Below are positions 30,025-50,438 of a stretch of DNA of 64,000 nt, piece by piece. Source of the stretch: Prochlorococcus sp. AG-402-N23 (GTDB lineage: Bacteria > Cyanobacteriota > Cyanobacteriia > PCC-6307 > Cyanobiaceae); the NCBI GenBank assembly GCA_003216355.1, contig QCIX01000003.1, forward strand, positions 1 to 64,000, given 5' to 3'. The notes beneath the pieces were generated by a model. That model had not been told where the DNA came from, searched no databases, and saw only the letters and a program-made list of their open reading frames with translations. The position numbers were made by a program, and so were the translations under genes. How positions within the stretch are numbered: the stretch's first letter is position 1; each line of letters begins with the position of its first letter.

Positions 30025-30103
30025 TTTAATTTATGGTTGCTTAGTTAAAACATAACAACTATTGGAAGTTATCGTCAGAACTAAAAATAAATAATTAAAT
30101 AAT

Positions 30104-30188
30104 GGGAGTGGGGGGACTTGAACCCCCACGAGCTAAATCGCTCGACGGATTTTAAGTCCGGCGCGTCTACCAATTCCGCCACACTCCC
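30104..30188 (-). tRNA. tRNA-Leu (anticodon UAA), intronless
   Basis: Reverse strand reads GGGAGTGTGGCGGAATTGGTAGACGCGCCGGACTTAAAATCCG...GGGGGTTCAAGTCCCCCCACTCCC; 7-bp acceptor stem, long variable arm, TAA anticodon. Confidence 0.96.
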
Positions 30189-47728: not shown

Positions 47729-49144
47729 TTAACCCTGAACATCAAGCTTGTCGACAGTGTCAAACTCGAACTTAATTTCCTTCCAAGTTTCTAGAGCAAT
47801 AGCTAATTCAGGACTATGCTTAGCAGCTTCCATAAGAATGTCTCTACTCTCTTTTTCGATTTCGCGACCAGCATTACGGGCTTTTACACAAGCTTCTAAA
47901 GCAACTCTGTTAGCTGCAGCTCCAGCAGCTGAACCCCATGGATGACCATGTGTTCCTCCACCGAACTGAAGGCAGGAATCATCCCCAAAGATCGCAAGAA
48001 GTGCAGGCATATGCCAAACATGGATACCACCTGATGCGACTGCAAATACTCCAGGCATTGAACCCCAATCTTGATCAAAGAAGTTACCTCTTGATCTATC
48101 TTCGGGAACAAATGACTCTCTTAAGTTGTCAATATAACCAAGAGTTGTTTGACGATCACCTTCTAGTTTTCCAACAACGGTTCCAGTATGTAATTGGTCT
48201 CCTCCAGATAGTCTCAAACATTTTGCAAGAACTCTGAAGTGAATACCATGCTTTGGATGTCTATCAATAACAGCATGCATAGCTCTGTGAATATGCAGAA
48301 GCATGCCATTTTTACGACACCAATTAGCTAAACCAGTATTTGCAGTAAAACCACCAGTTATATAATCATGCATGATGATTGGCATATCTAGCTCTTTTGC
48401 AAATTCAGCTCTTTCATAGAGTTCTTCAGGAGTGTTAGCAGTACAATTTAGATAGTGACCTTTAACTTCTCCAGTTTCTCGCTGAGCAAGCTTAACTGCT
48501 TCTGCAACAAACTCAAATCTTTCTCTCCAACGTTGGAATGGTTGAGAATTAATATTCTCATCATCCTTGGTTAAATCAAGACCGCCTCTAAGACATTCAT
48601 ATACAACTCGACCATAGTTTTTACCAGATAATCCTAATTTAGGTTTGATGGTACAACCAAGTAGAGGTCTTCCGTATTTGTTAAGTCGATCTCTTTCAAC
48701 TACGATTCCGTTTGGTGGGCCACCGCAAGTTTTGATGAAAGCAATTGGGAATCTAATATCTTCTAGACGTAGATGTCTTAGAGCTTTAAATCCAAAAACG
48801 TTTCCTACAAGAGATGTTAAGACGTTTGTAATTGAGCCTTCTTCAAAAAGATCTAAAGGATATGCAATAAAAGCATAGAAAGCTTCAGGATCTCCAGGAA
48901 CGTCTTCGATTCGATAACAACGTCCTTTATAAAATTCTAAGTCTGTAAGTAACTCGGACCAAACTGTTGACCAAGTACCTGTTGAAGATTCAGCGGCAAC
49001 AGCTGCTGCAACTTCTTCTCTTGGAACACCTTCCTGACCTGTACATTTGAAACAGGCTAGTAAATCGGTGTCTAGGGGTACATATTCTGGAGTCCAGTAG
49101 GTATCTCTGTACTCCTTTACCCCTGCGTCATACTTCTTACTCAT
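47729..49144 (-). CDS. rbcL: RuBisCO large subunit (form IA)
   Basis: [49 protein letters not shown]. Confidence 0.99.
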
Positions 49145-49213: not shown

Positions 49214-49525
49214 TTAGTCCTTTTGACCAAGAAATTCACCGTTACCTAGAGCAGGTTCAACTTCTCTATGAGGACGAGCAATAATGTGAGCTGCAACTAA
49301 ACCGTCACCAACTCTTTCACAAGCATCAGCACCAGCTCTTACAGCTGCGTTAACTGCACCTGTTTCGCCTCTAACTAATACTGTGACATAACCGCCGCCA
49401 ACGAATTCACGACCAATAAGGCGAACTTCTGCTGCCTTTGTCATTGCGTCTGCTGCTTCGATTGCAGGTACAAGTCCGCGTGTCTCGATCATGCCGAGAG
49501 CGATACCCATTGTTTCTGTAGCCAT
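49214..49525 (-). CDS. csoS1: Carboxysome shell hexamer protein CsoS1
   Basis: BMC domain MGIALGMIETRGLVPAIEAADAMTKAAEVRLIGREFVGGGYVTVLVRGETGAVNAAVRAGA. Confidence 0.98.
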   Translation of the reverse strand: MATETMGIALGMIETRGLVPAIEAADAMTKAAEVRLIGREFVGGGYVTVLVRGETGAVNAAVRAGADACERVGDGLVAAHIIARPHREVEPALGNGEFLGQKD

Positions 49526-49543
49526 TGTCTACTAAATACTAAA

Positions 49544-49557
49544 TGTGGAATGTTCAA
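49544..49557. repeat. Copy 1 of exact 14-mer TGTGGAATGTTCAA (in csoS1 leader, antisense to it)
   Basis: Read directly; the csoS1 mRNA strand reads TTGAACATTCCACA here, 18 nt upstream of ATG. Confidence 0.95.
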
Positions 49558-49579
49558 TTCGAAGAATGCTTCATTAAGT

Positions 49580-49589
49580 ACTTATAAGT
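49580..49589. promoter_or_regulatory. Perfect palindrome ACTTATAAGT, putative operator or -10 region for csoS1
   Basis: Read directly; on the csoS1 strand includes TATAAG. Confidence 0.35.
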
Positions 49590-49634
49590 CAAGCGTTTTC
49601 GACAAAATCTCCATTAATGTTTTTTCTATCATTC

Positions 49635-49649
49635 ATAAGTTAAACTTAT
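49635..49649. promoter_or_regulatory. Palindrome ATAAGTT-A-AACTTAT, putative operator
   Basis: 7-bp perfect arms around one central base. Confidence 0.35.
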
Positions 49650-49669
49650 CACCCTTGGTACTATTGATA

Positions 49670-49675
49670 TGTCAA
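49670..49675 (-). promoter_or_regulatory. Consensus-like -35 hexamer TTGACA upstream of csoS1
   Basis: Forward TGTCAA = TTGACA on csoS1 strand; matching -10 is weak. Confidence 0.25.
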
Positions 49676-49750
49676 TACTTATGCAAATTAGTTAGTGCAT
49701 CAAAACATACTGTTGTGTTAAGAAAAAATTTACATTATGTTATTTAGCGT

Positions 49751-49805
49751 ACGAGACAGGCCCTGTCTACACAGGTGTGGAATGTTCAACCTTTCCTGTC
49801 TCCGT
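49751..49805 (+). other. Candidate structured RNA / regulatory fold upstream of rdgB and csoS1 (strand unproven)
   Basis: Outer stem ACG-AGACAGG (49751-49760) with CCTGTCT-C-CGT (49795-49805, one-nt bulge); inner CCTGT-CTAC-ACAGG; loop carries TGTGGAATGTTCAA. Confidence 0.5.
49776..49789. repeat. Copy 2 of exact 14-mer TGTGGAATGTTCAA (in loop of 49751-49805 fold)
   Basis: Read directly; identical to 49544-49557. Confidence 0.95.
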
Positions 49806-49853
49806 ATCAAGCTTTGAAGTAAGATAATATTCACAATAAATTTTTATATTATT

Positions 49854-50438
49854 TTGAACCTTCCAGTTCTAACTATTGCGAGTGGTAATCAAAGAAAAGT
49901 ATCTGAAATTTCAGAGATGCTGGATGTTTTGTCTTTAAAGGTTGAGAAGCAACCAGAATATTTAAATGTAGAAGAGACTGGGAAAACATATTTTGAGAAT
50001 GCACTACTTAAAGCCAAAGCAGCTTCTCTAGAGACAAAAACTTGGGCATTAGCTGATGACTCAGGTCTTGAAGTAGATGTTTTAGATGGTCGACCAGGAA
50101 TTTATTCTGCTCGATATGCCAAAAATAATGATGAGAAAATTAAAAAATTAATTAATGAACTTTCTGATAGTCCTTATAGGAGTGCAAGGTTTATAAGTTG
50201 TATGGTTTTGTGCGATCCCTCAGGAAACTTAGTTAAAGATACAACAGGAATATGCTGGGGAGAAATTCTTAAGAACCCCAAATATCCTAATGGGGAATTC
50301 GAATCTATTTTTTGGGTTAAAGAAGCTAATTGTGTTTACGGTGAGCTCTCACAATCACAACTAAATAAATTAGGTAGTAGAGGTAAAGCTGCAAAAATTA
50401 TGTCACCTTTTTTAAAAAAAGAGATAGGTTTAACTTAA
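49854..50438 (+). CDS. rdgB: Non-canonical purine NTP pyrophosphatase (RdgB/HAM1)
   Basis: LTIASGNQRKVSEISEML; ALADDSGLEVDVLDGRPGIYSARYA; TTG start. Confidence 0.94.
   Translation: MNLPVLTIASGNQRKVSEISEMLDVLSLKVEKQPEYLNVEETGKTYFENALLKAKAASLETKTWALADDSGLEVDVLDGRPGIYSARYAKNNDEKIKKLINELSDSPYRSARFISCMVLCDPSGNLVKDTTGICWGEILKNPKYPNGEFESIFWVKEANCVYGELSQSQLNKLGSRGKAAKIMSPFLKKEIGLT

Follow-up and report, generated by a model that had tools for sequence, protein, structure and literature searches.

The question raised by the region between csoS1 and the divergent gene rdgB in the 64-kb stretch of DNA analysed here (the window) is why one 14-mer, TGTGGAATGTTCAA, occurs in it twice. The first-pass annotation suggested that a plus-strand RNA transcribed over the distal copy pairs with the csoS1 leader, and offered as its alternative that both copies are repeats in one long csoS1 leader that mark duplicated protein-binding sites. 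Prochlorococcus and marine Synechococcus account for a large share of the CO2 fixed in the ocean and do so with few protein regulators, a paucity of regulators that has been noted (PMC2518516). To our knowledge, the tuning of the alpha-carboxysome operon has been little described.

Two exact copies of a 14-mer between csoS1 and rdgB

A pattern search of the window located exact copies of TGTGGAATGTTCAA on the plus strand at 49544-49557 and 49776-49789, as the first-pass annotation had reported, while each of the remaining matches has three mismatches. The same two copies were the only exact matches in the Prochlorococcus-type genome of the window, with two mismatches in the next best matches. 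The open reading frame of csoS1, in which the complement of the ATG occupies 49523-49525, confirms that the proximal copy is separated from the gene start by 18 nt (Table 1). TTG is the apparent start codon of rdgB in the window (49854). The sole match to Rfam at the gathering threshold in the window was a tRNA (30103-30188, minus strand).

We compared the csoS1 upstream regions of 90 loci from the genus with that of the window. Every genome of the genus for which this part was read has an unchanged distal 14-mer, located 231-233 nt from the proximal copy. In the alignments that were read, the 12-mer TGTGGAATGTTC shared by the two copies had no change in either of them, and the proximal copy varied only in its last bases. 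Most other genera have kept GGAATGTTC at both places. This conservation of both copies is far beyond chance.

Table 1. Coordinates of genes, predicted promoters, the candidate RNA element and its putative pairing sites in the window
Feature	Position	Strand	Basis
csoS1, alpha-carboxysome shell protein, first gene of the carboxysome operon	49214-49525	-	ORF; csoS1 matches in related genomes
cbbL, next gene after csoS1	47729-49144		ORF listing
rdgB/HAM1-type gene, TTG start, 3' of the element	49854-50438	+	ORF; same-strand element upstream of rdgB in related loci examined
Predicted csoS1 promoter: -35 TTGACT (49587-49592), 18 nt, -10 CATTCT (49563-49568)	49563-49592	-	Fixed spacing
Predicted element promoter: -35 TTGTGT (49713-49718), 17 nt, -10 TATGTT (49736-49741)	49713-49741	+	Conservation versus shifted controls
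Structured RNA element, candidate sRNA	49750-49806	+	Covariation; arm-swap test; covariance-model match (E = 1.1e-11)
RNA site 1, UGUGGAAUGUUCAA, mostly unpaired, complementary to the csoS1 mRNA 5' end	49776-49789	+	Exact 14-mer; core GGAAUGUUC kept across genera
Target site 1, UUGAACAUUCCACA, predicted 5' end of the csoS1 mRNA	49544-49557	-	37-nt TTGAC-GAAC spacing
RNA site 2, UGUCUAC, inner hairpin, complementary to GUAGACA	49764-49770	+	7/7 pairs in the window
Target site 2, GUAGACA, csoS1 mRNA positions -7 to -1, directly 5' of the AUG	49526-49532	-	Complementarity and coevolution

The distal copy lies in a conserved structure

The element around the distal copy consists of an outer stem (49753-49760 with 49795-49802), the base of which is lengthened by TAC/GTA, and an inner hairpin (49762-49766 with 49771-49775), with the pairing segment located 3' of this hairpin. 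Folding of 49751-49805 on the plus strand in a 76-nt context gave -20.3 kcal/mol (z = -2.2). The foldable element described in the first-pass annotation therefore holds, but of the 14-mer that was placed in its loop, most though not all is left unpaired by the minimum-energy fold. The minus strand also folds (z = -2.5), so the strand is undecided by a single fold.

The sequences of the outer stem have been replaced across genera (GAGACAGG/CCTGTCTC, GAGGCAGG/CCTGCCTC, CCGAATGG/CCATTCGG, TGAAACGG/CCGTTTCA; Cyanobium-type stems: GGGGCAGG/CCTGCCCC, GGAACCGG/CCGGTTCC, AAGCGTGC/GCACGCTT), and inspection by eye reveals at least seven stems that were rewritten independently. RNAalifold recovered the outer stem alone from the raw alignment and missed the inner hairpin because it is misregistered between lineages; the structure was therefore set by hand, and then tested by shuffling and sliding. 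Across 34 elements, 91% of the cells were paired and 11 of the 13 pairs had both-sided changes, values that were reached in 0 of 500 shuffles, a count that ignores the relatedness among these elements. Sliding the structure by a single column brought pairing down to 51-54%. Since the 5' arms were misaligned in the alignment that included the distant genera (A3), an arm-swap test was used in its place, in which the native arms of 30 elements paired at 7.63 of 8 positions, as compared to 4.77 of 8 for crossed arms.

One-sided changes were mostly G-U on the plus strand; if the minus strand were the one transcribed, they would be A-C mismatches. The raw wobble count in the hand-set structure was 30 versus 12 in favor of the plus strand, and most of the 12 were judged to stem from three rows (L115, L119 and L121) that are aligned one base off. 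Ten G-U and five A-C combinations were counted in the arm test, and most of the A-C cases were located at the edges of stems or in elements that are weak or decayed. Conserved RNA secondary structure, as for a base-pairing sRNA acting in trans, was thus found by both covariation and arm swapping, and these comparisons support the interpretation of the element as a structured RNA read from the plus strand.

Predicted promoters and transcript starts

A TAnnnT hexamer that ends 5-9 nt before the aligned stem was identified in 25 of the 26 genus representatives, of which 15 also have TTG exactly 17 nt upstream of the hexamer. The mean counts at 151 shifted control positions were 0.76 for TAnnnT and 0 with the TTG, and the maxima 5 and 0, respectively. 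In the genus of the window, the -10 is moved slightly farther from the aligned stem by a conserved 3-bp stem extension. On the basis of these conserved motifs, which judged against the shifted controls represent a predicted promoter of the element itself on the proposed strand, the plus strand is predicted to be transcribed from the base of the stem, at about 49749. No intrinsic terminator was found 3' of the element, and transcripts may therefore read into rdgB.

For csoS1, both TTGAC and GAAC were found in 169 loci, of which 168 have TTGAC exactly 37 nt before GAAC, and CAnnnT-like hexamers were present as the -10 at 18-nt spacing in the scored loci. The start of the mRNA is predicted at the G in position 49555, which corresponds to 28-34 nt 5' of the AUG across loci. 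Given the fixed spacing, the csoS1 mRNA is predicted to begin with GAACAUUCC, which is the target itself. Both promoters are sequence predictions, and none was found in a strict consensus promoter scan of the window. An inverted repeat, ATAAGTTAAACTTAT (49635-49649), sits between the two divergent promoters and looks like a LysR-type (RbcR/CbbR) box; ATAAGnnnnnCTTAT is present in most related loci.

Two sites of complementarity to the csoS1 leader

The element is complementary to the csoS1 mRNA at two sites (Table 1). Complementarity at site 1 extends to as much as 16 bp in Cyanobium-type genomes. Site 2 pairs UGUCUAC with GUAGACA just before the AUG in the genus of the window (high-light Prochlorococcus), CAUUGCC with GGCAAUG in the AUG region for the majority of low-light Prochlorococcus, and CCUGGAG with CUCCAGG in the Shine-Dalgarno region in Cyanobium-type genomes. 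Where site 2 has changed within the genus, all seven pairs were kept via G-U wobble in 38 of 39 loci. The hybrid in the window had a ddG of -17.6 kcal/mol, as compared to -2.5 +/- 2.65 kcal/mol for shuffled leaders. In three loci of a low-light clade (L098-L100), the csoS1 start region reads AGGACATG rather than AGGCAATG, and matching changes are seen in the element of L099.

We also compared the duplex energies of elements with the leaders of their own and of other genera. With row and column effects removed, the own pairs among 26 genera were favored at z = -6.3 overall, z = -5.7 beyond the 9-nt core and z = -4.5 for site 2 alone (0 of 20,000 permutations in each case), scores that are inflated since the genera are related and not independent. 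When 45-nt segments were slid along the csoS1 region, the strongest duplex was obtained at -35 (-35 to +10; -38.8 kcal/mol, z = -6.7), as compared to about -20 to -30 kcal/mol elsewhere; all standout segments overlap the csoS1 leader, and z = -3.9 was also obtained in one control segment at -95. The reverse complement of the element gave -20 kcal/mol against the csoS1 region. These results support a complementarity that appears specific to the genus's own pair and to positions -35 to +10 of csoS1, with a pairing segment that coevolves with its target at the ribosome-binding region. The divergence of the two copies with loss of complementarity, named beforehand in the first-pass annotation as a refutation, was not what the genomes revealed: the pairing was kept. 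The antisense RNA proposed there for 49751-49805 thus gains support from the stem covariation, the plus-strand wobbles, the promoter and the genus-specific complementarity.

The genome-wide check for targets consisted of pattern searches, in which the exact matches to GAACATTCCACCC in eight genomes were the element and the csoS1 leader only, with a few one-mismatch matches elsewhere. A second target in sbtA was considered and rejected, as the sbtA leader is without the motif except for the complement of the element itself.

Distribution of the element in the family

The distribution and INDEPENDENCE of position were examined with a covariance model. Of 200 genomes from the family, 133 carry the element, representing 27 of 37 genera, and the genome of the window has it once. 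The element is located upstream of rdgB on the same strand in the related loci examined, usually at 50-120 nt, and at about 250-690 nt in L180, L186, L192 and L181. In many Cyanobium-type genomes, sbtB and sbtA separate it from csoS1 by about 1.6-1.7 kb, and the complementarity to the leader is nevertheless kept. The sbtA-sbtB genes, for a bicarbonate permease and its PII-like partner, have the csoS1 orientation in L169, L170, L172, L181 and their relatives. No match to the element was found among GenBank phages.

The leader core was intact in 25 of the 26 genus representatives with an element and in 5 of the 15 examined genomes without one (the genomes are related). Because the core is intact in these five, it must be under some further constraint, perhaps as initially transcribed sequence. 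In L200, which belongs to genus g18, both the element and the csoS1 target look decayed (GGAATGCTC and GAACATCCC), and two other genomes of this genus (L127 and L130) are without the element. One of the latter, L130/G195, which by the covariance model has no element, we take to be MIT9313. In L135 and L204-L207, csoS1 adjoins chlN, there is no rdgB and no element, and the leader core is GAACCTCC in place of GAACATTCC.

A putative trans-acting regulator of csoS1

We propose, with a probability of roughly 80%, that 49750-49806 is the 5' part of a plus-strand RNA with its own promoter that pairs in trans with the 5' end of the csoS1 mRNA at two points, and that it likely represses the translation of csoS1. 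The RNA would be transcribed divergently from csoS1 and fold into the outer stem and the inner hairpin with the pairing segment exposed. Site 1 would then capture the first nucleotides of the csoS1 mRNA, while site 2 would cover its ribosome-binding or start-codon region. Ribosome loading on csoS1 would thereby be blocked, and the output of carboxysome shell, and possibly of Rubisco, lowered. The comparative tests, which are all made on genome sequences, support the structure, the strand, the conservation of the promoter, the coevolving pairing and a single preferred target; that the RNA is expressed, the position of its 3' end, its action as a repressor and not an activator, and the signal are inferred. 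As compared to the first-pass annotation, the plus-strand promoter of the element, the csoS1 promoter that starts at the target, the second complementary site and the family-wide arrangement are additions.

The same RNA and the same pairing could instead act positively, if the RNA, by capping the 5' end of the csoS1 mRNA, shielded it from 5'-end-dependent decay or opened the leader, so that carboxysome expression increased. Such an effect would suit a target site 1 with which the mRNA is predicted to begin, as well as the CUCC/GGAG self-complementarity around the Shine-Dalgarno sequence of Cyanobium-type leaders, which pairing could disturb, and RblR sets an example as an antisense RNA that regulates rbcL of Synechocystis positively (PMC5306279). 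However, in all of the lineages examined, site 2 lies over the region of ribosome binding or of the start codon, and for this reason we favor repression and regard activation as unlikely, if well worth considering. Another reading takes the element as the 5' leader of the rdgB mRNA, with the csoS1 pairing regulating rdgB, or both mRNAs mutually. Its strand, its usual distance to rdgB and the failure to find a terminator between the two agree with this, but the longer gaps in four loci do not, and the contacts are tuned to the start region of csoS1 rather than to rdgB. We know of no functional link between RdgB and carboxysomes, which also counts against a role as rdgB leader, and we consider it rather improbable.

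The idea of duplicated protein-binding sites has in its favor two direct copies about 232 nt apart and a conserved inverted repeat between them, for example as DNA sites of a LysR-type regulator. A covarying stem whose wobbles suit one strand only is hard to reconcile with such sites, and so are the change in spacing, from about 232 nt up to about 1.7 kb where sbtA-sbtB intervene, which argues against local DNA repeats, and the mostly wobble-type variation of site 2 within the genus, which breaks the DNA identity while keeping the RNA pairing; this explanation is therefore very improbable. Even less credence is given to a long minus-strand csoS1 leader that holds both copies, for example as a riboswitch. 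Although the minus strand also folds to a hairpin, a separate promoter is predicted for csoS1 at a constant position downstream of the element, the wobbles become A-C mismatches on that strand, no match to an Rfam riboswitch was found, and the variable position, with sbtA-sbtB intervening in many genera, excludes that the element is part of the csoS1 mRNA that it is suggested to control. Nor does it qualify as a cis-encoded antisense RNA, since by our predictions there is no overlap between it and the csoS1 leader, the two being located about 200 nt to 1.7 kb apart.

A repressing RNA that acts in trans thus remains our preferred interpretation, with which Prochlorococcus and its relatives probably tune carboxysome production. 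Such a coevolved and conserved RNA would represent a direct control point for the start region of csoS1, and compensatory variants of its putative two-site pairing design occur naturally in 26 genera or more. A broader and tentative proposal is that of a family-wide RNA regulator of the alpha-carboxysome operon, which captures the 5' end of the csoS1 mRNA and adds a hairpin contact rewritten by lineage, and which may be released from the divergent rdgB leader, so that a 5'UTR-to-5'UTR circuit would connect two divergent operons.

Comparison with known RNAs

We searched Rfam 15 at gathering and permissive thresholds with the window and six related loci, and obtained no family match to the element above the gathering thresholds, the Yfr families in Rfam included, and nothing usable at the permissive ones. 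The list of Yfr8-21 in MED4 has no entry at 518432-518483 on the minus strand, the position of the element in that genome. RNAs located less than 100 nt from a gene in the same direction were left out of the MED4 microarray survey, as stated for Yfr1 (PMC2518516), and the absence of the element, located 51 nt before rdgB, fits this exclusion. The computational screen of Axmann et al. (2005) flagged, as candidate cluster 87, a structured region that lies 5' of the rbcLS cluster and may be the csoS1/rdgB intergenic region; it was described as a conserved promoter region in only two of four genomes, with no element, target or pairing proposed (PMC1242208). The conserved candidate sRNA gene is thus apparently undescribed, as judged from Rfam, the published MED4 ncRNA lists and the papers cited here.

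We interpret the element as a candidate new sRNA family of an already known, base-pairing regulatory kind. It resembles the Yfr sRNAs of Prochlorococcus (Yfr1-Yfr29, Yfr106-108) in being small, structured, intergenic and predicted to regulate by base pairing. One of these, Yfr10, which carries the Yfr1 motif, is reported to enrich csoS1 and csoS2 mRNA in MED4 (PMC6778093). Yfr10 is also an sRNA that acts on csoS1, an action that is predicted for our element, but it works through the ACUCCUCACAC motif, comes from another locus and shares no sequence with the element. Yfr28 pairs with the leader of its neighbor ftsZ (PMC7368042) and overlaps an alternative leader of that neighbor, whereas the element lies clear of csoS1 and is spread across the family instead of being confined to one clade. 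RblR of Synechocystis PCC 6803, a cis-antisense RNA of 113 nt (PMC5306279), is likewise directed at a cyanobacterial carbon-fixation gene; it is fully complementary to rbcL and activating, while the element is non-overlapping and would contact csoS1 at two short sites.
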